From contig CALHDG010000235.1 in the NCBI GenBank assembly GCA_938023075.1, positions 1 through 32,052 of the forward strand: DNA of 32,052 nt, written 5' to 3'. Position 1 is the stretch's first letter. Every line of letters starts with the position of its first letter. The stretch is from an uncultured Chitinophagales bacterium (lineage in GTDB: Bacteria > Bacteroidota > Bacteroidia > Chitinophagales > JAHDHT01). A program made the translations under genes and the position numbers. The notes under the pieces are model-generated. The model was given only the letters and a program-made list of their open reading frames with translations. It ran no database searches and was not told the DNA's origin. Shown here piece after piece: positions 764-11,522 of this stretch.

Positions 764-1618
764 TTATTGATTGTTTTTCTTTAAAGCTTCAATTTCTTTT
801 CTCATTTCTTCTATTGCTCTATCTTTTTCATCAAGTGCTTTATTCTTTATTATAATCAATTCATTTTTTTGCTTTAGCTCCGCATGTTGCTTTTCAAACA
901 TTTCAAAATAGGTTCTCCAAGCTTCCCGTTCAGCTTCTATTTCTTTTCTTTCTTCTGCACTTGCACCTACGTGATGCAGTATATCAGTCATAATTTTTAG
1001 TTCTTCAACATCGGCTTGATGGTTAAATTCTTTAATTACACCCTTATCATCAATAAAATTACGTTGTTCAAAAACACTCAATAATTTATCTAATCTTGAT
1101 TTATATTTACCGGTAATTCGCTCTACCTGAACCACAAAACTATCGTGTGTTAAGTTTTCAATAAATTCATTTTTATGGTTAATAGTGGTATTATTTATTA
1201 AGTCGTGATATTGCCTTTCAACTTTAACACAAGCACTTTTAATATTTTTTAAATTGAAACCTAAAATATAAATAGTTGTGATAGGTAAGGTTACTTGAAC
1301 ATCATCAACTACATCTTGTTTTTTATATTGTTCAGCCAAATAGTTTCTGAAACGCATCAAATCCATTTCGTTTTTGGCTTTTTGAATTTCAATTAAAACC
1401 TTTTTGTGTTCGCCGGTTTCAGTTTTGATAATAGCAATAAAATTAAGTCGAAAAATGGCAACGGGCACAGCTTCTTTATCATAGGTAAATTCTTGTGGTT
1501 TTAATTGCACCGAGATTACATCTTCAGTTAACATAGTTCCAATAAAAAACTTAGCCACGCGTTCGTTTTCCATCAAACGCTTAAACACTACATCATATAT
1601 TGGATTGGCAATTATCAT
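764..1618 (-). CDS. Rpn/PD-(D/E)XK-type nuclease-fold protein with C-terminal coiled coil, probably inactive
   Basis: A 284-residue protein with the layout of the PDDEXK_2/Rpn (recombination-promoting nuclease, transposase_31-like) families: NPIYDVVFKRLM at the start and the IEIQKAK strand at residues 76-82, which holds the E-x-Q half of the active site. The preceding position, where the family normally has Asp (RLDF), is Asn60 here (RLNF; codon AAT instead of GAT). This suggests loss of the metal-binding Asp by a single transition. The last ~60 residues, rich in Glu and Lys, look like a coiled coil. It follows the sufE-DUF59 gene by 35 nt on the same strand. The fold is supported by motifs only; catalytic state is inferred. 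Confidence 0.75.
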   Translation of the reverse strand: MIIANPIYDVVFKRLMENERVAKFFIGTMLTEDVISVQLKPQEFTYDKEAVPVAIFRLNFIAIIKTETGEHKKVLIEIQKAKNEMDLMRFRNYLAEQYKKQDVVDDVQVTLPITTIYILGFNLKNIKSACVKVERQYHDLINNTTINHKNEFIENLTHDSFVVQVERITGKYKSRLDKLLSVFEQRNFIDDKGVIKEFNHQADVEELKIMTDILHHVGASAEERKEIEAEREAWRTYFEMFEKQHAELKQKNELIIIKNKALDEKDRAIEEMRKEIEALKKNNQ

Positions 1619-1653
1619 TGTATCATCTATAAAAAACTCTACCTATTTTTATT

Positions 1654-2559
1654 TTAGAAAAAACCTAACTCTAATTTAGCCTCTTCACTCATCATTTCTT
1701 TATCCCAAGGTGGGTCGAAAGTTAGCTCTACATCAACCTCACCAACTTCATTTAATTCTTTCACCTTATCCCTAACTTCAATTGGTAAACTATCTGCCAC
1801 CGGACAATTTGGCGCAGTCACCGTCATCTTTACAAACACATTATTTAGGGGTGGATAAACCTGAATTTCATATATTAAACCCAACTCATATATATTTACA
1901 GGAATCTCCGGGTCAAATACTTCCTTAATTTTTTCAGTCACCATCATTTCAATCTGTGCGGGTGATTTCATTTCATCGCCAACTGTTTCTTTAACGACAA
2001 TTTTGTCATCAATATCTGAAACATCCGAAACATCTGACACAACAGAATTTCCATTTCCTTTAATTTCATTTGCTGTTAATTCTTCCACTTTTACAGTCTC
2101 TTTTATTTCATTTTTCATAGCATTTTCATTTTCATTTATTTTGCTTTCAAAACCTAAAGCATACAATTTCATTTGCTTAATCATTGCATTTAAACCATTG
2201 CTTCGTTGTGAGCTTAAATGCGAACGTAAGTTGATATTATCAATAAACGTTAATTCAGCATCTTTTATATTAGTTGGTGTTTGATTATCCAAAATGTTTA
2301 CCAACAAGGCGATAATACCCTTAGTAATTACTGTGTTGCTATCTGCAAAAAATCGAACCTTTCCATCTTCTTCAAAAGCGTGTAACCAAACCGTTGACTG
2401 ACATCCTTTAACAATATTATCATCGGTTTTATATTGTTCATCCAACGAAGGCAACTCTTTACCCAAGTCAATAATGTATTCATACTGACCCATTGCATCC
2501 CCTTCAAATAAGGCAAAATCTTCAACAATTTGTTTTTGTATGTCTGCTATCGTATTCAA
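1654..2559 (-). CDS. sufE: SufE-DUF59 (SufT-like) fusion, Fe-S cluster assembly
   Basis: A 301-residue protein made of two normally separate parts. Residues 1-~138 are SufE, which accepts persulfide sulfur from SufS and passes it to SufBCD. The sulfur-accepting Cys is Cys53 in VKGCQSTVWL. Residues ~200-301 are a DUF59/MIP18 domain with FDPEIPVNIYELGLIY, TAPNCP (the conserved Cys) and the FDPPWDKEMMSEEAKLELG ending, as in SufT-like Fe-S maturation factors. The ~60-residue linker is acidic and low in complexity, with a VSDVSDVSDIDD run. In many Bacteroidota sufE and the DUF59 gene are adjacent; here one frame covers both with no internal stop. It starts 12 nt after sufS. Confidence 0.93.
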   Translation of the reverse strand: MNTIADIQKQIVEDFALFEGDAMGQYEYIIDLGKELPSLDEQYKTDDNIVKGCQSTVWLHAFEEDGKVRFFADSNTVITKGIIALLVNILDNQTPTNIKDAELTFIDNINLRSHLSSQRSNGLNAMIKQMKLYALGFESKINENENAMKNEIKETVKVEELTANEIKGNGNSVVSDVSDVSDIDDKIVVKETVGDEMKSPAQIEMMVTEKIKEVFDPEIPVNIYELGLIYEIQVYPPLNNVFVKMTVTAPNCPVADSLPIEVRDKVKELNEVGEVDVELTFDPPWDKEMMSEEAKLELGFF

Positions 2560-2571
2560 ATTATTCTTATT

Positions 2572-3804
2572 TTATTGTAGCATTATTTTTGCTTTTTCAA
2601 TGCCTTCTACTAACCGGTCAATATCTTCTTTGGTATTGTAAACCGCCAAAGATGCTCTTGCAGTTCCCGGAATTTCCCAAGCATCCATTAAAGGCTGACA
2701 ACAATGATGCCCGGTTCTAATCGCAATGCCCATCTTATCTAACAAAACACCAATATCGTACGGGTGAATATCTTTTATTATAAAAGATAAAACGCCTGCT
2801 TTATTTTTTGCTTGTCCTTTAATGTGTAAATTTTTTATATTAGATAAGGCTTCGGTGCCGTAAGCCAACACTTCATTTTCTTGCTTTTGAATAAAATCGT
2901 GACCGACTTCATTCATAAAATCTATAGCTGCTCCAAGTGCAATGCCACCGCAAATATTGGGTGTGCCGGCTTCAAATTTAAAGGGTAATTCATTATAAGT
3001 AGTTCCTTTTAAAGTTACCTCTTTTATCATTTCGCCACCACCTTGATAAGGTTGCATTTCAGTTAACCACTTTTCCTTTCCATACAAAATACCAATACCG
3101 GTTGGTCCGTACATTTTATGACCAGAAAAAGCTAAGAAATCAACATCCAATTTTTGGACATCAATTTTTAAGTGGGGAGCTGCTTGAGCAGCATCTAATA
3201 AAACAGCCGCACCGAATGTGTGTGAAGCCTCAATTATTTCCTCCACCGGGTTGATTGTTCCAAGCGCATTAGAAATATAACCAAGGCTAACCACTTTAGT
3301 TTTTTTGTTTAATAAAAGATGAAAGGCATCCATATCTAAAGTGCCATCTTCTAAAACAGGAATATATTTGATGTTACATTTTTTCTGTTCTGCAATTATT
3401 TGCCAAGGTACTAAGTTGCTATGATGTGCCATAGCGGATAACAAAATTTCATCACCTTCTTCTAAAAAAGTATTGCCAAAGCTTTGAGCGACTAAATTGA
3501 TACCTTCGGTTGTTCCCTTTGTAAAGTTTACTAACATATCTGATTCGGCATTGATAAACTCTTTGGCTTTAGTTCGTGCATTTTCATATTCAATCGTCGC
3601 TTGTTCTGCCAAATAATGAGCTCCTCTGTGAATGTTACTATTGTATTTTGTATAATAATTGGTAATAGCATCAATTACACTTTGTGGCTTTTGAGAAGTT
3701 GCCGCATTATCTAAATATACCAATGGCTTTCCATTTACTTCTTGCTGAAGTATGGGGAATTGTTGTTTGATTTTTGTTATTTTATTTGATGCTGCTTTGA
3801 CCAT
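2572..3804 (-). CDS. sufS: cysteine desulfurase SufS
   Basis: A 410-residue PLP enzyme that removes sulfur from L-cysteine and hands the persulfide to SufE. The PLP lysine is Lys230 in AFSGHKMYGPTG. The persulfide-carrying Cys is in RTGHHCCQPLM (Cys368, followed by a second Cys where many homologues have Ala). The N-terminal LVYLDNAATSQKP and the HRGAHYLAEQAT region are characteristic of SufS/CsdA. Length is as expected for the family. It lies 5 nt after the compact TOPRIM-like gene and 12 nt before sufE-DUF59, so it is still in the operon despite the inserted pair upstream. Confidence 0.96.
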   Translation of the reverse strand: MVKAASNKITKIKQQFPILQQEVNGKPLVYLDNAATSQKPQSVIDAITNYYTKYNSNIHRGAHYLAEQATIEYENARTKAKEFINAESDMLVNFTKGTTEGINLVAQSFGNTFLEEGDEILLSAMAHHSNLVPWQIIAEQKKCNIKYIPVLEDGTLDMDAFHLLLNKKTKVVSLGYISNALGTINPVEEIIEASHTFGAAVLLDAAQAAPHLKIDVQKLDVDFLAFSGHKMYGPTGIGILYGKEKWLTEMQPYQGGGEMIKEVTLKGTTYNELPFKFEAGTPNICGGIALGAAIDFMNEVGHDFIQKQENEVLAYGTEALSNIKNLHIKGQAKNKAGVLSFIIKDIHPYDIGVLLDKMGIAIRTGHHCCQPLMDAWEIPGTARASLAVYNTKEDIDRLVEGIEKAKIMLQ

Positions 3805-3809
3805 TTGAG

Positions 3810-4364
3810 TTAATTAGAATTTAATAACATGACCTGATTATAAAATGCCTCTATTTCTTTACGAATTTCAGAATTGAGTAATTGCTGTTTCCATTCTTCT
3901 ATGGCTAATAAATCTTTTGCATAATCAATTTGGTCTTTATCCAATAAAAAATGAAGATATTGCTTCGGAGCTTGTTGCATTTGTTTCCATTGGTTGTCAG
4001 AGATTTTCATATTGAATTGATCTTCATAAAATACTTTATCATTAAAAAAAACAACTTCAATTTCTGGTTTAGGTATAATAATTTTCAAACGGTCTTTATA
4101 CACTCTATATCTTAAAATATCTTTAATGTATACTTCATGATCATTTATTTTATATTCATCATTCGAATCTGCATCAGAAATTACAATGACCATAATGTCA
4201 TCTTCTGTAATTAAATAAGTACCTGCCTTTGAGAGCAAAGAGGAAAAACTATAAGCCGATAATAGTCTGAAATCTTCGTGATTTGGTAGCCCATCTATTA
4301 GAGCTTTTATTAAAGAGGCATTCACTTTTTCTTCTGTAAATACGTGAAATTTTGAATTATTCAT
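3810..4364 (-). CDS. compact TOPRIM-like protein paired with an Mrr-like nuclease (function unknown)
   Basis: A 184-residue protein without an obvious named family. It can be laid over a TOPRIM core: an N-terminal strand then Glu11 (FHVFTEEKVNASLIKALI), a D-x-D strand at 64-66 (VIVISDADSND), and a later PEIEVVFFND segment (Glu101, Glu103). The last resembles the PEIEAWLF segment of the larger TOPRIM protein at 9245-10015. The C-terminal third is charged and helical. Its start overlaps the end of the Mrr-like nuclease gene by 8 nt, so the two are probably translationally coupled and act together. The TOPRIM assignment is my own motif comparison and should be treated as tentative. Confidence 0.55.
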   Translation of the reverse strand: MNNSKFHVFTEEKVNASLIKALIDGLPNHEDFRLLSAYSFSSLLSKAGTYLITEDDIMVIVISDADSNDEYKINDHEVYIKDILRYRVYKDRLKIIIPKPEIEVVFFNDKVFYEDQFNMKISDNQWKQMQQAPKQYLHFLLDKDQIDYAKDLLAIEEWKQQLLNSEIRKEIEAFYNQVMLLNSN

Positions 4365-4923
4365 ATTTATTAGATTTCGTTAAATTAAGATTTGGATGCC
4401 CGTGTGTTGAGCTAAATTTAATTTTCTTTTCCAGTCCTTCAACAAAACATTCATTTTCCAAACAATATATAATATCTTCTCTTTGCCATAAAATAATTGA
4501 TTGTGGTAATGAAAAATGAGCTAATGTAGCCGCAGGCTTAGTAAAACCAGAGGTGCTAAATACACAACCAATACACGATGGAGGTCTTCTTAAAAGCTGA
4601 TTTCTTAATTTAGCCAAAGGTTCAACATTTACATTTACACCTTTATTAGAGTAATTTTTACATTCAACGATAACCGTTAATCCTATATTTTGAATATGAA
4701 CCGCCCCATCAATTTGCTCTACATTTTCACCAAATAGGTCCACATCATAAGGATAATCCACATATGCACCTTCTATTTCGAAAGCCCTTAAAACAAAATA
4801 CTCGAAAGCAATACCAGGCTGCCAACCGGGCGTTTCTTTTTCAAGAATGCCACTCCATAGATTAACTAAATCACTATGAGTTTTATATGCTTTTATAGTC
4901 GATATGTATTCGGTTTTTGTCAA
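4357..4923 (-). CDS. Mrr-like PD-(D/E)XK restriction endonuclease domain protein
   Basis: A 188-residue protein with the order of an Mrr/PD-(D/E)XK nuclease: helix Glu41 (GIAFEYFVLRAFE), Asp72 (EQIDGAVHI) and E-x-K at 87-89 (VIVECKNYS), followed by a segment like the FSTSGFTKPA stretch of Mrr-type enzymes (residues ~123-132). All expected catalytic residues are present, so it is probably an active nuclease. There is no separate DNA-binding domain; specificity may come from the partner gene that overlaps its 3' end by 8 nt. The pair is inserted between sufD (17 nt away) and sufS without interrupting transcription direction. A role in defence is inferred from the family and the pairing. Confidence 0.72.
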   Translation of the reverse strand: MTKTEYISTIKAYKTHSDLVNLWSGILEKETPGWQPGIAFEYFVLRAFEIEGAYVDYPYDVDLFGENVEQIDGAVHIQNIGLTVIVECKNYSNKGVNVNVEPLAKLRNQLLRRPPSCIGCVFSTSGFTKPAATLAHFSLPQSIILWQREDIIYCLENECFVEGLEKKIKFSSTHGHPNLNLTKSNKYE

Positions 4924-4940
4924 GTTATCTATTTTTAATT

Positions 4941-6278
4941 CTATACCATCATCCCTTTAATCTTTTCATCAATCTTTTCAATTAAATAATCTTTCAACGG
5001 TTCAATACCAACTTTCAAAACTACTTCTCCAACAAAAGCTTTTAGCAGATAAGTTTTGGCTTGCTTTAAACTCAATCCTCTTGAACGTAGGTAGAAAATC
5101 GCCTCCTCATCTAACTGCCCGATGGTACAACCGTGTGAACAACGTACATCATCGGCAAAAATTTCTAACTGCGGTTTGGTAAAAATTTGGGCATCATCGC
5201 TAACTAAAATATTGCGGTTGGTTTGATAGGCGTTGGTCTTTTGAGCATCGCGCCTAACCATAATTCTGCCATTGAAAACACCTTTCGATTTTCCGCCTAA
5301 AACCCCTTTGTACAACTCTTGACTAAAAGCATTTGCCGAACTATGGTCAACCAAAGAACGGTTGTCGGCATGCTGATTTTCATTTAAAACGTAAGCACCA
5401 TACATATGCGCCTCGCTGTGTTCATCGGCAATTACCATATTGGTTTTGTTGCGAATTAAACCACCTTCTAACGAATAGTTATGACAATGAATATGACTTT
5501 GCTTTGATAAATAAGTTTGTGTTTCGGTAAGATTGGTTGCGGTGGCTGCTTCATCTTGTACTATAAAATGATCAATTCTTGACGAAGTGCCTGCATATAT
5601 TTCAATCACCGAATTGCTGAAAGATTCTGCTGTTTCATTTAAAGAAACGAAATGTTGCAACACTTTTGCCTGACTGTTTTCGCCGCCTATAATTAAACTG
5701 CGTGGCGAAGCAATGGTTGCCCCCTTTTCGGTATTTGCGATTTGTAAAACATAAACCGGATGAGCTAAAACATGTTTATCAGGAATGTGTACAAACAAAC
5801 CATCTTGTGCCAAACCGGTATTTAAAGCCACCATCGCTTCGTTGGTATGGTCGGCGTATTTTGTGAAGTGGTCGCTAATCAATTGCGGTGCATATTTAAA
5901 TGCTTTCGACAAATTGCCAATCACCAAACCTTCGGCTTCATCAATTATGGTTGATAAATCTTCCCGATACCATCCATTTTCAAAAACCAGCATATTGGCT
6001 TTTAAATCAGGAATTAAAAATTTAGATATATCAATTGATGTTGGTTGTTTGTTGGTTGTAAAGTTAGACTGAAACGATTTTTTTGCAAGGCTATTTAAAT
6101 TGGTATACTTCCAATCTTCTAATTGAGTAGTAGGGAAACCTTTTTGGGCAAAACTATCAATTGCGTTTTTTCGTATGCGATGCAATTCACTTTTTGCATC
6201 ACCGTTTAAACCCGCTTCGTAGTTGTTGAAATCGTTTACCAACTGTTCTTTTAAATTATGTTGCACTGTCATTATCAA
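4941..6278 (-). CDS. sufD: Fe-S cluster assembly protein SufD
   Basis: A 445-residue SufD, a right-handed beta-helix scaffold subunit that pairs with SufB and SufC in the cytoplasmic SufBC2D complex. Recognisable parts are the N-terminal FPTTQLEDWKYTNLNSLAKK, the core run of repeats, and the C-terminal DDVRCSHGCTIGQLDEEAIF segment common to SufB and SufD. Two starts are possible (MIMTVQ); the ATG at 6270-6272 would remove two residues only. It follows sufC by 15 nt. The next gene downstream is not the usual sufS but the inserted Mrr-like/TOPRIM-like pair. Confidence 0.95.
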   Translation of the reverse strand: MIMTVQHNLKEQLVNDFNNYEAGLNGDAKSELHRIRKNAIDSFAQKGFPTTQLEDWKYTNLNSLAKKSFQSNFTTNKQPTSIDISKFLIPDLKANMLVFENGWYREDLSTIIDEAEGLVIGNLSKAFKYAPQLISDHFTKYADHTNEAMVALNTGLAQDGLFVHIPDKHVLAHPVYVLQIANTEKGATIASPRSLIIGGENSQAKVLQHFVSLNETAESFSNSVIEIYAGTSSRIDHFIVQDEAATATNLTETQTYLSKQSHIHCHNYSLEGGLIRNKTNMVIADEHSEAHMYGAYVLNENQHADNRSLVDHSSANAFSQELYKGVLGGKSKGVFNGRIMVRRDAQKTNAYQTNRNILVSDDAQIFTKPQLEIFADDVRCSHGCTIGQLDEEAIFYLRSRGLSLKQAKTYLLKAFVGEVVLKVGIEPLKDYLIEKIDEKIKGMMV

Positions 6279-6293
6279 TTTTTCTACATTTAA

Positions 6294-7061
6294 TTAATGA
6301 GATGCCGCCGGCACTTCTTCTTTTATCCAATCGTAGCCTTTTTCTTCTAACTCTAATGCCAACTCTTTGCCGCCCGATTTTACTATTCTTCCATTGTATA
6401 AGATGTGTACAAAATCAGGTACGATATAATCTAACAGACGCTGATAATGTGTAATAATTAAAGTAGCATTTTCAGCCGATTTCAGTTTGTTAACGCCGTT
6501 AGCAACCACTTTTAAAGCATCAATATCTAAACCAGAATCTGTTTCATCTAATATCGAAAACTTAGGCTCTAACATCGCCATTTGTAAAATTTCGTTCCGT
6601 TTTTTTTCACCGCCCGAAAAGCCTTCGTTGACTGCCCGTTGCATAAATTTAGGGTCAATTTCTAACATAGCCGCTTTCTCTCTTATTTTTAGTAAGAAGT
6701 CTTTAGCATTCATTAGTTCTAAACCGGCATTTTCGCGTTTGGCATTTATTGCTGTTCTGATAAAATTGGCAATGCTCACTCCAGGAATTTCTACCGGATA
6801 TTGAAAAGCGAGAAACAAACCTGCCCAAGCTCTTTCTTCCGGGTCGAGGTCTAACAAATCTTCGCCGTTTAAGTTAACCGTTCCACCGGTAACCTCATAT
6901 GTTTCCTTTCCAGATAAAACCGATGCAAGAGTTGATTTGCCCGAGCCATTTGGTCCCATAATGGCATGCACTTCGCCTGCATTAATTTCTAAATTAATTC
7001 CTTTCAGAATCTCTAAACCCGATTCTTCAACCTGCGCTTTTAAATTTTCTATTTTTAACAC
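6294..7061 (-). CDS. sufC: Fe-S cluster assembly ATPase SufC
   Basis: A 255-residue ABC-type ATPase that powers SufBC2D. Walker A is GPNGSGKST at residues 36-44, the Q-loop is FQYP near 86-89, the signature is FSGGEKKR from 148, and Walker B is FSILDETDSGLD around 168-179; the DETDSGLD form is distinctive of SufC. No transmembrane segments, as expected. The gene directly upstream is the truncated VapC remnant rather than sufB, so sufC is separated from sufB by about 3 kb of accessory genes, all in the same direction. No promoter of its own is evident in the 13 nt to the remnant. Confidence 0.97.
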   Translation of the reverse strand: MLKIENLKAQVEESGLEILKGINLEINAGEVHAIMGPNGSGKSTLASVLSGKETYEVTGGTVNLNGEDLLDLDPEERAWAGLFLAFQYPVEIPGVSIANFIRTAINAKRENAGLELMNAKDFLLKIREKAAMLEIDPKFMQRAVNEGFSGGEKKRNEILQMAMLEPKFSILDETDSGLDIDALKVVANGVNKLKSAENATLIITHYQRLLDYIVPDFVHILYNGRIVKSGGKELALELEEKGYDWIKEEVPAASH

Positions 7062-7074
7062 GTATGTATATTAT

Positions 7075-7218
7075 TTATTTGTTTTGTTCAAAATAATGTA
7101 GTCTTAAGCCGTAAACTCTGCCAAAATGTTCTAAGTTATTGGTGGCTAATTCCAAATTGTTAGCCATTGCTGTTGCTGCTATTAAAATATCAGGAACACC
7201 AATTAGTCTATTTCTCTT
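7075..7218 (-). pseudogene. truncated VapC-type PIN toxin remnant
   Basis: Directly after the antitoxin-like gene the minus strand encodes KRNRLIGVPDILIAATAMAN, then NLELATNNLEHFGRVYGLRL and a TAA at 7075-7077. This matches the C-terminal ~45 residues of VapC PIN toxins: the Asp of the active site (PDILIAATA) and the TNNLEHFGR strand. No start codon lies upstream in this frame, and an in-frame TAA sits at 7219-7221. The N-terminal two thirds, with the other PIN acidic residues, is missing. The deletion probably removed the end of the antitoxin and the beginning of the toxin together. It cannot be a working toxin. Confidence 0.8.
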
Positions 7219-7402
7219 TTAAAAATTCTGCATAATCGTCATCTGACATTACTGGTCCATTTAGCAACAATTTTTCTATCCTCTTCTTTTTAAGTTTGGT
7301 ATCCTTCCGTTGATTCGAATTTTTATCAATTTCACTTTTTAATAAATGAAACTGCTCATCCGGCAACTGTTTAACGGCTTCTAATATTTCTGCATATCCC
7401 AT
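7208..7402 (-). CDS. VapB-like antitoxin remnant
   Basis: A 64-residue, highly charged protein. It ends LLNGPVMSDDDYAEFLKEK, which resembles the C-terminal toxin-neutralising tail of antitoxins paired with PIN toxins; such tails normally run some residues further. The stop overlaps the VapC remnant, which begins in another frame at the same place, so the 3' end is probably a deletion junction. It lies 11 nt after the Rpn-type nuclease gene. With its toxin truncated it has no obvious job, although the frame is still open. Family assignment is moderate. Confidence 0.55.
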   Translation of the reverse strand: MGYAEILEAVKQLPDEQFHLLKSEIDKNSNQRKDTKLKKKRIEKLLLNGPVMSDDDYAEFLKEK

Positions 7403-7413
7403 TTGGTTTATTT

Positions 7414-8319
7414 TTATATATCGTTTTGTATTTTTAAAATAATCTTTTCAACTTCTTCAATAGGCAAATTAACGATTCTTGCTATCATTTCTATTTCCAT
7501 GTTTTCTTTAAGGCATTGCTTTATTACTGCAAATTGATTTTTCCTTTCTCCTTTCTTTTCTCCCTTAATTAAGCCTTTTTTCTCTCCCTTAATTAAACCT
7601 TTCTTCTCTGCTTTCTTTTCTGCTATTGTTATTCTGCCAATCGCATCTTGTTCGGCAATGGAAGCATTATCATAATCTTTCCATTCCTCTTTATCCCAAT
7701 TGTGCAAATCGGCATCTTTATAGGCTTCTTTTAGTCCGTCATCATCTACATGCCCGGGAATTACATCTAAATTTTCAGCATTTTTAATAAAATAAATCCA
7801 TTTTTCTTTGAGTGTTTTTAATTCGTTTTCTTTTATATGAAATTTCTTCAATTCAATAAAAGTAAATTGAATGTCTTTTAATTTGTGTTCGTGCGTTTCA
7901 TCATTAACTATTATATGATGCGATAGATAGTGCGCCCCTTCAAAGAAATTAAAATCTAAAATACCAATAAAGTAAGTTGGTTTTAGCAGTTTATATTTGT
8001 CACCTTTGTTAATTTGCATGGAGTATTCCCGACAGGTATAATATTGAACCCGTTTGTCAAAACCATCTACATCGGCTACCTGCATTTCTATTATAAACTG
8101 TCTGCCTTTTACATCTTTTGCTCTTACATCAATAATCGTAGCTTTTTCTCCTGCAATTCTTGGCATTTGATATGGATTGACAATAGACACTTCTGTAATT
8201 ATACGGTCGCCCGCTAACTTCAATACCGCATTTAAAAACGAAATGATGATCACCGTTTTCTTTTCGTTGCCAAATATTTTACGAAAAGCTACATCGTTTT
8301 TTACGTCTGCAAATTTCAT
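7414..8319 (-). CDS. Rpn-family PD-(D/E)XK nuclease / putative transposase
   Basis: A 301-residue member of the Rpn family (recombination-promoting nucleases, formerly PDDEXK transposase-like). The N-terminus MKFADVKNDVAFRKIFGNEK is diagnostic. Asp64 (TIIDVRAKD) and Glu78-x-Gln80 (FIIEMQVAD) supply an intact active site. The middle has HYLSHHIIVND and a PGH segment. Near residues 240-260 an eight-residue unit, GLIKGEKK, is repeated in tandem (24-nt repeat at the DNA level, about 7550-7600), a common tail pattern in this family. Family proteins are RecA-independent DNA endonucleases that raise recombination. It lies between DUF2442 and the VapB-like gene inside the suf operon. Confidence 0.87.
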   Translation of the reverse strand: MKFADVKNDVAFRKIFGNEKKTVIIISFLNAVLKLAGDRIITEVSIVNPYQMPRIAGEKATIIDVRAKDVKGRQFIIEMQVADVDGFDKRVQYYTCREYSMQINKGDKYKLLKPTYFIGILDFNFFEGAHYLSHHIIVNDETHEHKLKDIQFTFIELKKFHIKENELKTLKEKWIYFIKNAENLDVIPGHVDDDGLKEAYKDADLHNWDKEEWKDYDNASIAEQDAIGRITIAEKKAEKKGLIKGEKKGLIKGEKKGERKNQFAVIKQCLKENMEIEMIARIVNLPIEEVEKIILKIQNDI

Positions 8320-8346
8320 TTTTTGTTTTTGTTAGATGCTTTTTAT

Positions 8347-8601
8347 TTAAGCAACCTTAGACTCAACTTTTTTTTCAACCAACGTTCTCAAATAATTGGG
8401 ACAAATATCATATCCATTTTCCCAAGCCAAACCTCCACCTGCTTCAATGTGTAATGTTCTAAATTTTTCTTCTTCTAATAATTTTTTAGCAATACCTTTT
8501 CCTAAAAATGGTTTTAAATTTACTTCTGCTTCAAAACCATCTTCAAATTTTATCTTAATATAATAACAATTTTTTATTTCTAAATTATTAACTATAATCA
8601 T
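8347..8601 (-). CDS. DUF2442 domain protein
   Basis: An 84-residue protein that fits DUF2442: an N-terminal beta segment (YIKIKFEDGFEAEVNLKPF), a central helix and the WENGYDICPNYL motif, corresponding to the family's W-x-N-G-x-D-I-x-P-x-x-L. Members are small proteins of unknown mechanism, often next to DUF4160 or toxin-antitoxin-like genes. Its ATG overlaps the stop of the CHAT-like gene by one base (TAATG), so the two are translationally coupled. This makes it the third member of a TOPRIM / CHAT-like / DUF2442 cassette. Whether it acts as an antitoxin or regulator in the set is unknown. Confidence 0.75.
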   Translation of the reverse strand: MIIVNNLEIKNCYYIKIKFEDGFEAEVNLKPFLGKGIAKKLLEEEKFRTLHIEAGGGLAWENGYDICPNYLRTLVEKKVESKVA

Positions 8602-9245
8602 TACTCAAATAAATCATTTACTTCGGCTTCGCTATGAAATAATTTTGTGTTCTCTGATTTGTAATAGATTCGAAGCCTACTCCAAATATGCATCAATGCT
8701 TTGTATCCCTCCATTACATCAAAATCAGGATTGTTTTCCGCAATTTTATCCAATTCATATTGCCCCGATTCACACTTTAATTTCAATTTATCTAAATACT
8801 TAATTATCTCCTTTTTATTCTTTAGTAGCGTAAAATTATCCAAAATGTCCGAGACAATGTTTATAAAAATATGTTTTGATTCATCAGCATCTTCAAGAGC
8901 AGCTAATCTGCCGGTGTAACCCCAATAAATTGAACCCGAATTGGCTGTAACTTTTCCTAACAAATTTGCAGTATAACAAGCATAAACAAAAACAATTCTT
9001 TTATTTAAATAAGCATCCTTATCAGAATAAGCTATTTTATCATCATTGTCATAAAAGCAATTATCGCTACCGTGCGTAAAAATAAAAACATCATCTTGTG
9101 GCCTTCTGCTCAAGTTATCTATTAAATTTTTTCTGGTCGCATCCATAGACATCATATTAAATGAATCATTTGGTAAACACTCGCTAACAATGTTGAAATT
9201 TGATTTGGTTGAAAGGTCATAATTTGTTACAAATCCAATTTTCAT
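8601..9245 (-). CDS. CHAT/caspase-like putative cysteine peptidase
   Basis: A 214-residue protein of no named family that I recognise. It carries a His-Cys pair placed as in caspase-like and CHAT peptidases: DDVFIFTHGSDNCF with His58 after a hydrophobic strand, and RIVFVYACYTANLLG with Cys90 after the next one, comparable with the LVVLSACETA strand of CHAT domains. A following SGSIYWGYTG strand also fits. No signal peptide or membrane segment, so it should be cytoplasmic. Start and stop overlap both neighbours by one base (TAATG), which ties it to the TOPRIM gene and DUF2442. The peptidase call is inferred from motif placement, not from overall similarity. Confidence 0.55.
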   Translation of the reverse strand: MKIGFVTNYDLSTKSNFNIVSECLPNDSFNMMSMDATRKNLIDNLSRRPQDDVFIFTHGSDNCFYDNDDKIAYSDKDAYLNKRIVFVYACYTANLLGKVTANSGSIYWGYTGRLAALEDADESKHIFINIVSDILDNFTLLKNKKEIIKYLDKLKLKCESGQYELDKIAENNPDFDVMEGYKALMHIWSRLRIYYKSENTKLFHSEAEVNDLFE

Positions 9246-10015
9246 TATGCAGGAGCGTTTGCTTTCCGAATCAATAAATCTCTTGCTATTCTAAGCAAAT
9301 CACTCGTATATTCTTTACCCACTTCTGTTTCATTTTTGATATGTTTAATCATATCAATAACTCTGTAAGTACTTCCATCACTTGCTTTAAAAATAATTTT
9401 ATTGCTTGGAATATGCTCATTTAAAAGATTTATAAAAACTCTTCTATCCAAATTTTTTGAAATTGGCGTTTCTAATTCTTTAATGGATGTCTTTAAAATT
9501 TCACCTACTCTTGATAGAAAATTATATAAAGACGATGAACGAGCAGTAGCTTTCGAAATATTTATATTTTCTAAAAAATGAGGTGATTTGTAATTTTTGA
9601 GCAAATTATAAGCGCTTTGTTTTGGGTGTGGTATTTCGTCTGGCAAAGGCAGTCTTTCTAAAATTATTTGAGCACTCTTGCTTTTTCCATTCTTAATGGC
9701 AAGTTCATCATCAGCAAAAAGCCAGGCTTCAATTTCAGGTACTGCAAAAAAGACTTCAACGTCACCATATTCTTCTTGCTTTGTCTCAATATAATTTTTC
9801 GCATCAGGCAAATTTATAATGTCCAAATCCATTAATATTCCTACAATAGTATTATTGCTTGCAGGGATATTAGATAAATAGTCCTTCATATTGTGTTTTC
9901 CCTCAGATATTAATACGGAAACAAATTTGTCGCTTAAACCGACAGCCTTGAATATTGACTCAATAATTATCTTGTCACTTTTTCCTTCAACAATTAATAT
10001 CAGTTTATTTTTCAT
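9245..10015 (-). CDS. TOPRIM-domain protein (DUF4276/OLD-TOPRIM-like)
   Basis: A 256-residue protein with a TOPRIM core: Glu10 (LILIVEGKSDKIIIESIF), Asp63-x-Asp65 (GILMDLDI) and a VFFAVPEIEAWLFADDE segment (residues ~88-104) typical of DUF4276-like and OLD-nuclease TOPRIM domains. These residues bind divalent metal for phosphodiester chemistry. The C-terminal half (residues ~110-256) is helical and not assigned. No ATPase domain is fused or adjacent, unlike OLD or Gabija proteins. It follows sufB by 46 nt and its stop overlaps the start of the CHAT-like gene by one base, so it is the first gene of a coupled trio. A nuclease role is inferred. Confidence 0.75.
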   Translation of the reverse strand: MKNKLILIVEGKSDKIIIESIFKAVGLSDKFVSVLISEGKHNMKDYLSNIPASNNTIVGILMDLDIINLPDAKNYIETKQEEYGDVEVFFAVPEIEAWLFADDELAIKNGKSKSAQIILERLPLPDEIPHPKQSAYNLLKNYKSPHFLENINISKATARSSSLYNFLSRVGEILKTSIKELETPISKNLDRRVFINLLNEHIPSNKIIFKASDGSTYRVIDMIKHIKNETEVGKEYTSDLLRIARDLLIRKANAPA

Positions 10016-10061: not shown

Positions 10062-11522
10062 CTATCCAACACTCCCCTCCAAACTAATCGCCAACAATTT
10101 CTGTGCCTCCACCGCAAACTCCATTGGTAATTCATTCAAAACTTCTTTGGCGAAACCGTTGACAATTAACTCGGTCGCCTTTTCAACATCCAAACCGCGT
10201 TGGTTACAATAAAACAAAATATCTTCTCCAATTTTGGAGGTGGTGGCTTCGTGTTCAACCTGTGCATCGCTGCGAGCCGACTCAATATAGGGGAAAGTAT
10301 GCGCCCCACATTTATCGCCAATCAACAGCGAATCGCATTGACTAAAATTATATGCCTTATCGGCATTCTTAGCCACTTTTACCAATCCCCTGTAACTATT
10401 ATCGCTAACGCCGGCAGAAATACCTTTGCTAATTATTCGACTCTTGGTGTTTTTTCCGATATGTAACATTTTGGTTCCAGTGTCTGCCTGTTGGTGATGA
10501 TTGGTTACCGCAACTGAGTAAAATTCGCCAATACTATTGTCGCCTTTTAAAATGACCGACGGATATTTCCAGGTAACTGCCGAGCCGGTTTCCACCTGCG
10601 TCCAACTAATTTTTGAATTGTCGCCTTTGCAAATACCCCGCTTGGTTACAAAATTATAAATGCCCCCTTTGCCCGTCTGCGGGTCGCCGGGATACCAATT
10701 TTGAACGGTGCTGTATTTAACCTCTGCATTTTCGGCAGCAATAATTTCTACAACTGCCGCATGCAATTGATTTTCATCACGCTGTGGAGCGGTGCAACCT
10801 TCCAAATAACTCACATAACTATCGTCTTCGGCAACAATTAAAGTACGCTCAAACTGTCCGGTGTTGGCTGCATTAATTCTAAAATAAGTACTCAATTCCA
10901 TCGGGCAACGCACCCCTTTTGGAATGTAGCAAAACGAACCATCGGTAAACACCGCCGAGTTTAACGCCGCATAAAAATTATCGGTCATTGGTACTACCGA
11001 GCCAATATATTTTTTTACTAATTCAGGATGTTCTTGCACGGCTTCGGAAAACGACATAAAAATAACACCCAACTTTTTCAGCTCTTCCTGAAAAGTAGTT
11101 TTTACCGAAATGCTATCTACCACAATATCAACAGCAACTCCGGTCAATCGTTTTTGTTCTTCAATAGAAATGCCCAACTTGCCAAATGTTTTCAACAATT
11201 CCGGGTCTACCTCATCTAAGGATTTGTATTTTGGCGTTTCTTTCGGAGCGGCATAATAATGAATATCCTGAAAATCAATTTTATCGTATTTGACGAAAGC
11301 CCATTCCGGCTCTACCATAGTTTGCCAATGGCGGTAGGCTTTTAACCGCCATTCTAACAACCACTCCGGCTCCTCTTTTTTTGCGGAAATTAAACGAATA
11401 ATATCTTCGTTTAAGCCTTTTGGTGCCAAGTCGTTTTCAATATCGGTGGTGAAACCGTATTTGTATTCGCTTTGGGTTATTTCGTTGATTGTTTTGTCAA
11501 AATCGGTTAATACCTCTGCCAT
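10062..11522 (-). CDS. sufB: Fe-S cluster assembly scaffold SufB
   Basis: A 486-residue SufB, the scaffold subunit of SufBC2D on which nascent [4Fe-4S] clusters are built. Recognisable parts are [58 protein letters not shown] and the C-terminal [20 protein letters not shown] followed by YCNQRGL, which includes the conserved Cys and Glu. Length is as expected. It is the first gene of the operon; a well-formed Bacteroidota promoter lies about 86 nt upstream. Downstream genes are accessory until sufC, 3 kb away, so expression of the inserted cassette should follow that of the suf genes unless internal promoters exist. Confidence 0.97.

Follow-up and report, generated by a model that had tools for sequence, protein, structure and literature searches.

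Between sufB and sufC of an uncultured Chitinophagales bacterium lie three short genes, which encode a TOPRIM-domain protein (P0001), a CHAT/caspase-like protein (P0002) and a DUF2442 protein (P0003). The question raised by this locus is whether these genes form an undescribed defence system and, if so, which of them belong to it. The window, that is, the whole stretch of 32,052 nucleotides that was analysed, corresponds to contig 235 in an assembly of 6.1 Mb (Table 1). A reading made from the sequence only had taken the three genes for a single unit, in which the overlapping junctions would impose a fixed stoichiometry on the products. The overlaps are confirmed, as is the assignment of the third gene to DUF2442: stop and start codons have one base in common (TAATG) at both the P0001–P0002 and the P0002–P0003 junctions. 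These junctions probably reflect translational coupling, as judged from the DNA, and nothing further about stoichiometry follows from them.

The three genes are located inside a longer operon, in the order sufB, the genes of P0001 to P0003, an Rpn family nuclease gene, a 64-aa open reading frame (ORF), a PIN-like fragment, sufC, sufD, an insertion of Mrr-type and TOPRIM-like genes, and sufS. A gap of 46 bases separates sufB from the TOPRIM gene. The spacing between sufB and sufC amounts to about 3 kb in the window versus ~25 bases in a genome of the same family (G001), where the sufB match ends at position 1343 and sufC starts at 1315. The inserted genes have no matches in the suf-bearing genomes of relatives (one of the same family and seven of the same order), and their G+C content is 26–33%, against 36–42% in the suf genes. 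Because of this lower G+C content and their absence from the suf operons of relatives, the inserted genes were probably acquired. Several other genes of the window deserve mention in their own right. The second insertion, between sufD and sufS, consists of a gene for an Mrr-type nuclease followed by one for a TOPRIM-like protein; the same two genes also occur together in a Chloroflexi contig, and they may represent another undescribed two-gene unit. The 64-aa ORF and the PIN-like fragment are perhaps the remains of a decayed VapBC-like pair. On the other side of sufB, a very AT-rich, divergently oriented gene adjoins it and encodes a protein with an LA2681-like HEPN domain.

Table 1. Positions of the genes of the window and of the related loci mentioned in the text.
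Feature	Position	Strand	Basis or remark
P0001, TOPRIM-domain protein, 256 aa	9245-10015	minus	First gene of the pair; Pfam OLD-like_TOPRIM
P0002, CHAT/caspase-like protein, 214 aa	8601-9245	minus	Second gene of the pair; AlphaFold2-predicted fold, putative dyad His58/Cys90
TAATG stop/start overlap, P0001–P0002 junction	9243-9247	minus	Sequence
P0003, DUF2442 protein, 84 aa	8347-8601	minus	Pfam DUF2442 4.1e-9
sufB, upstream operon gene	10062-11522	minus	Pfam SUFBD_core 2.5e-78; 88% identical to sufB of G001
sufC, downstream operon gene	6294-7061	minus	81% identical to sufC of G001
Rpn family PD-(D/E)XK nuclease/transposase	7414-8319	minus	Pfam PDDEXK_2 2e-52; NCBIfam TIGR01784 1.4e-42
64-aa ORF, then 40-residue fragment like the end of a PIN domain	7075-7402	minus	PF01850 E 0.027; just before sufC
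Mrr-type nuclease, then TOPRIM-like protein	4357-4923, 3810-4364	minus	PF04471; motifs VISDADSND, PKPEIE
LA2681-like HEPN protein, 587 aa	11831-13594	plus	PF18733 1.3e-16
Mrr/TOPRIM-like pair, Chloroflexi (L026)	5433-5999, 6004-6540		44% and 25% identity
Devosia locus	within 10 kb		LmuA/LmuB (Lamassu) and SIR2-nSTAND protein
Paraburkholderia locus	within 10 kb		DRT8 reverse transcriptase and its RT-associated PD-(D/E)XK partner
Stenotrophomonas locus	within 10 kb		MzaB, C, D, E and GmrSD_N gene
Rhizobium locus	within 10 kb		Type IV restriction helicase (mREase_IV) and OLD protein
One Pseudomonas locus (L037)	1525-8226		TnsB-like and TniB (Tn7-like transposase genes), Peptidase_C14 caspase-SH3 protein, trypsin gene
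GmrSD_N (DUF262) gene, Stenotrophomonas (L040)	7314-8873		Its stop overlaps the start of the TOPRIM gene
Orphan TOPRIM relatives	L020 373-1191, L021 6001-6819, L023 5989-6780		Directly upstream of threonine-synthase-like gene (assigned by eye)

With P0002 as the sole query, no relative was found in plasmids, phages, IMG/VR, GTDB contigs or other genomes of its phylum, and some weak matches (E 0.001–0.05) were taken as chance. P0001 led to a 13.7-kb IMG/VR contig (L014) with a full-length relative of 30% identity, where the next gene overlaps by ATGA and encodes a P0002 relative of 26% identity. When GTDB contigs were scanned with the TOPRIMs of the window and of L014, nine further confident TOPRIMs emerged, six of which directly precede a P0002 relative, namely in two Pseudomonas, Devosia, Rhizobium, Stenotrophomonas and Paraburkholderia. 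The pair is therefore found at seven other loci, one in a prophage contig and six in Alpha-, Beta- and Gammaproteobacteria, with the gene order of the window. The two genes overlap by the four bases ATGA in six of these pairs and by 26 bases in the seventh, and the proteins share 19–38% identity with those of the window. The identity matrices of the P0001 and P0002 families are strongly correlated over the eight pairs (r 0.92, permutation p 0.0005), which indicates that the two proteins are inherited as a unit; contact between them does not follow from this correlation. Searched with a nucleotide pattern of the Cys motif, IMG/VR gave only the L014 contig. Profile searches gave no further copies in 394 other genomes of the window's phylum (apart from one marginal match, E 0.008, in a stop-interrupted frame), in ~198 other genomes from the genus to which the first Pseudomonas host belongs, or in about 238 and 239 others from the host orders represented by Rhizobium and Paraburkholderia, and the module is for this reason considered rare. 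The TOPRIM and CHAT-like genes constitute a mobile two-gene module that is conserved as a unit.

This recurrence bears on two explanations of the locus. The genes form part of one long same-strand run from sufB to sufC, as would be seen if they had come together by chance in the suf operon or served in iron-sulphur assembly. However, the pair is also present outside any suf context in a second phylum and in a phage, and the suf operons of relatives are without it; since the pair recurs elsewhere, chance juxtaposition is refuted for it, and the likelihood left to this explanation is negligible. A system in which TOPRIM, CHAT-like and DUF2442 proteins act jointly would agree with the one-base overlap at both window junctions. 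Co-occurrence in other genomes, which the sequence-only reading had named as a check, holds for the TOPRIM with the CHAT-like protein, but tblastn detected no relative of P0003 next to any of the other seven pairs. A search with PF10387 (DUF2442) gave no match in five of six partner chromosomes; the remaining one has members of the family on other contigs only. The three genes do not stand as one unit: on the basis of these searches DUF2442 is a local, accidental neighbour and not a component of the conserved pair, and joint action of the three is largely refuted and very improbable. DUF2442 is an antitoxin family paired with DUF4160 in dhiTA (PMC8198452), and P0003 matches the NCBIfam DhiA antitoxin model with 1e-6, far below the model cut-off. 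Membership of the dhiTA toxin-antitoxin family was rejected: DUF2442 is present, but neither neighbour matches DUF4160.

Searches of Pfam, NCBIfam, PADLOC and PHROGs gave no significant match for P0002, and none of the eight members of its family matches the Pfam CHAT or Peptidase_C14 models at E 1; the family is consequently a divergent one, outside both of these Pfam families. The residues invariant in all eight homologues include His58, Gly59, Ala89, Cys90, Thr92, Gly97, Gly109 and Tyr110. An AlphaFold2 model built from the alignment of the eight homologues reached a pLDDT of 92.7 and a pTM of 0.90 (pLDDT 46 from the single sequence). In this model, His58 comes directly after strand 52–56 and Cys90 directly after strand 84–88, which is the order of clan CD. 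The Foldseek list for the model is headed by GPI transamidase, gingipain, SAVED-CHAT, caspases and legumain, with weak E-values of 0.005 and up, and therefore the assignment of the fold relies on structural Z-scores and residue placement. With VIA-align the best match was SAVED-CHAT (Z 11.9, 3.2 Å, 158 residues), followed by gingipain, DdvA, separase, C11 peptidase, Craspase TPR-CHAT (Z 9.7) and caspases. P0002 is thus confidently predicted to adopt the caspase-haemoglobinase fold of clan CD peptidases, with His58 and Cys90 as the putative catalytic dyad. The sequence-only reading had placed these two residues as in CHAT/caspase-like peptidases and had suggested a structure prediction of the 214-residue protein; the model agrees in its predicted fold and in the predicted position of both residues after successive core strands. 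The protein is a single domain of 214 aa in which no sensor domain was recognised.

Nucleases of this broad TOPRIM class cleave tRNA or DNA. P0001 scores 26.7 bits against Pfam OLD-like_TOPRIM (PF20469), above the cut-off of 23.2, and at the cut-off against DUF3226. Among the PADLOC models, HEC-01B (1.1e-15) and MAD4 (2.6e-7) match its TOPRIM region and one HEC-01A model matches the protein weakly (8.1e-4); its neighbour P0002 matches neither HEC-01A nor HEC-01B. A homologue gave a weak match to the PADLOC AriB model (1.1e-4). The metal site, Glu10 and Asp63-x-Asp65, lies where it had been located earlier and is invariant in the eight partnered homologues, as is a VPxIEAWxFAD motif. By its profile score above a curated cut-off and its Glu and Asp-x-Asp ligands, P0001 is classed as an OLD-like TOPRIM. 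A C-terminal region beyond the nuclease core is also conserved (Gly233, Tyr236 and Leu240–Asp246), and no gating loop, insertion or cleavage site was found in the protein.

The three GTDB TOPRIMs without an adjacent P0002 relative belong to Thiotrichaceae/gammaproteobacterial MAGs, and no P0002 relative was found elsewhere in these genomes either. In each of them Asp63 is replaced by Asn, and this position is one of only three that are changed in every orphan among the forty invariant in the partnered TOPRIMs. The comparison suggests that the TOPRIM retains its catalysis only alongside the protease; the loss of Asp63 was probably a single event in one lineage.

Recognised defence genes are found within 10 kb of four of the six chromosomal pairs (Table 1). 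At a fifth, one of the Pseudomonas loci, TnsB/TniB genes are likewise found inside the 10 kb around the pair; the caspase and trypsin genes beside them are possibly another protease-based cargo. In the Stenotrophomonas locus, where a GmrSD_N gene overlaps the TOPRIM gene, GmrSD_N is a possible third component of this lineage only. A separate OLD gene lies about 0.9 kb beyond the pair of L022, phage-tail genes alone were seen near the pair of chromosomal locus L036, and in the phage contig the pair is placed between the genes of the terminase large subunit and the portal. No ATPase gene other than sufC was found near the window pair and none adjoins the other pairs, in keeping with the earlier remark that this TOPRIM has no ATPase partner. 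The surroundings of the pair make a good but uncontrolled case for defence, as the scanned neighbours were chosen by hand. Because it is shared by distant bacteria and a phage, and mostly stands beside known antiviral genes, the pair is probably an undescribed system of defence against viruses.

Several known systems resemble it in part. In Canu (CanABC), too, a protease of the caspase clan is encoded next to a nuclease within defence islands, and the caspase activates the partner nuclease (PMC12799240), which is the logic proposed here for the TOPRIM/CHAT-like pair. However, the Canu nuclease has an MBL fold, the Canu caspase has Ig-like/TPR parts that the one-domain P0002 lacks, and the present pair has no CanB and carries the nuclease gene first. 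Membership of Canu is ruled out by the TOPRIM nuclease and the single-domain P0002. PARIS (AriA/AriB) and Gabija/OLD share the OLD/AriB-type TOPRIM with its E...DxD metal site, but the present TOPRIM has a peptidase in place of the adjoining or fused ABC/OLD ATPase, and for lack of such an ATPase this membership was discarded as well. SAVED-CHAT and TPR-CHAT (Craspase) of type III CRISPR are among the closest solved folds to P0002, which is a bare catalytic domain without SAVED or TPR and only about 10–12% identical to them. As for HEC-01 and MADS, whose models recognise the TOPRIM region, PADLOC has no convincing model for P0002 or P0004, and the peptidase partner is not among its models.

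How such a pair might work can be outlined from these parts. A CHAT/caspase-clan cysteine peptidase without an extra sensor domain and a metal-dependent, OLD/AriB/HEC-01B-type TOPRIM nuclease would be co-translated and would probably assemble into a complex that stays inactive as long as the cell is healthy. Upon infection, the peptidase would cut by means of His58/Cys90, most likely its TOPRIM partner, and cleavage would free a nuclease activity against DNA or tRNA; the infected cell would then be arrested, giving phage defence by abortive infection. The AriB TOPRIM cuts tRNA (PMC12409363), and protease-activated nucleases of the MBL fold are established in Hachiman, AVAST and Canu, with further enzyme classes expected by the authors of that work (PMC12799240). 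The combination of nuclease and protease mentioned by the sequence-only reading is accordingly a published logic, for other families. The chances that the pair is an abortive-infection module in which the peptidase frees the nuclease are about evenly balanced. That a minimal CHAT-type caspase relative and a TOPRIM nuclease make up a new self-contained sensor-effector pair, with proteolysis unlocking the nuclease, is a tentative proposal, somewhat short of even.

The roles might be reversed, the TOPRIM acting as a sensor or regulator that binds or nicks phage nucleic acid and the CHAT peptidase as the effector that cuts an essential host protein or another protein. The conserved C-terminal region of the TOPRIM could regulate the partner, and type III-E CRISPR provides a case of a CHAT protease that cleaves a different protein, Csx30 (PMC10952713). 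Nonetheless, no third conserved gene accompanies the pair as a dedicated substrate, and the metal site of the TOPRIM is strictly kept beside the protease, which suggests that TOPRIM catalysis matters; a reversal of roles is unlikely, at perhaps half the weight of an even bet. Less probable still is an arrangement like a toxin-antitoxin system, with the CHAT peptidase degrading or restraining a TOPRIM toxin, or the reverse, and serving chiefly to keep mobile elements stable. Such a role would suit a pair of small, overlapping genes that travels on mobile elements, once as phage cargo and once close to Tn7-like transposase genes, and it would suit the adjoining member of the antitoxin family of dhiTA (PMC8198452). 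Against this, the locus has no DUF4160 toxin partner, and DUF2442 does not accompany the pair elsewhere, while the orphan TOPRIMs persist without the protease only with an altered metal site, a fact compatible with both this arrangement and release of the nuclease by the peptidase.

The pair is a new combination of known kinds of part. In agreement with the earlier statement that no system of this composition had been described, no TOPRIM and CHAT/caspase pair was found in the literature, of which subscription papers and preprints were thinly covered. P0002 adds a peptidase family that is missed by current profile libraries, and the pair offers a compact, testable case for asking how infection might be sensed by a peptidase without a recognised sensor domain. 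If the proposed mechanism is true, protease gating of nucleases, established for the MBL fold, would include another, unrelated nuclease fold, and caspase-type proteases would have been coupled to nucleases more than once in bacteria, here in a very small form of two genes and about 470 residues.
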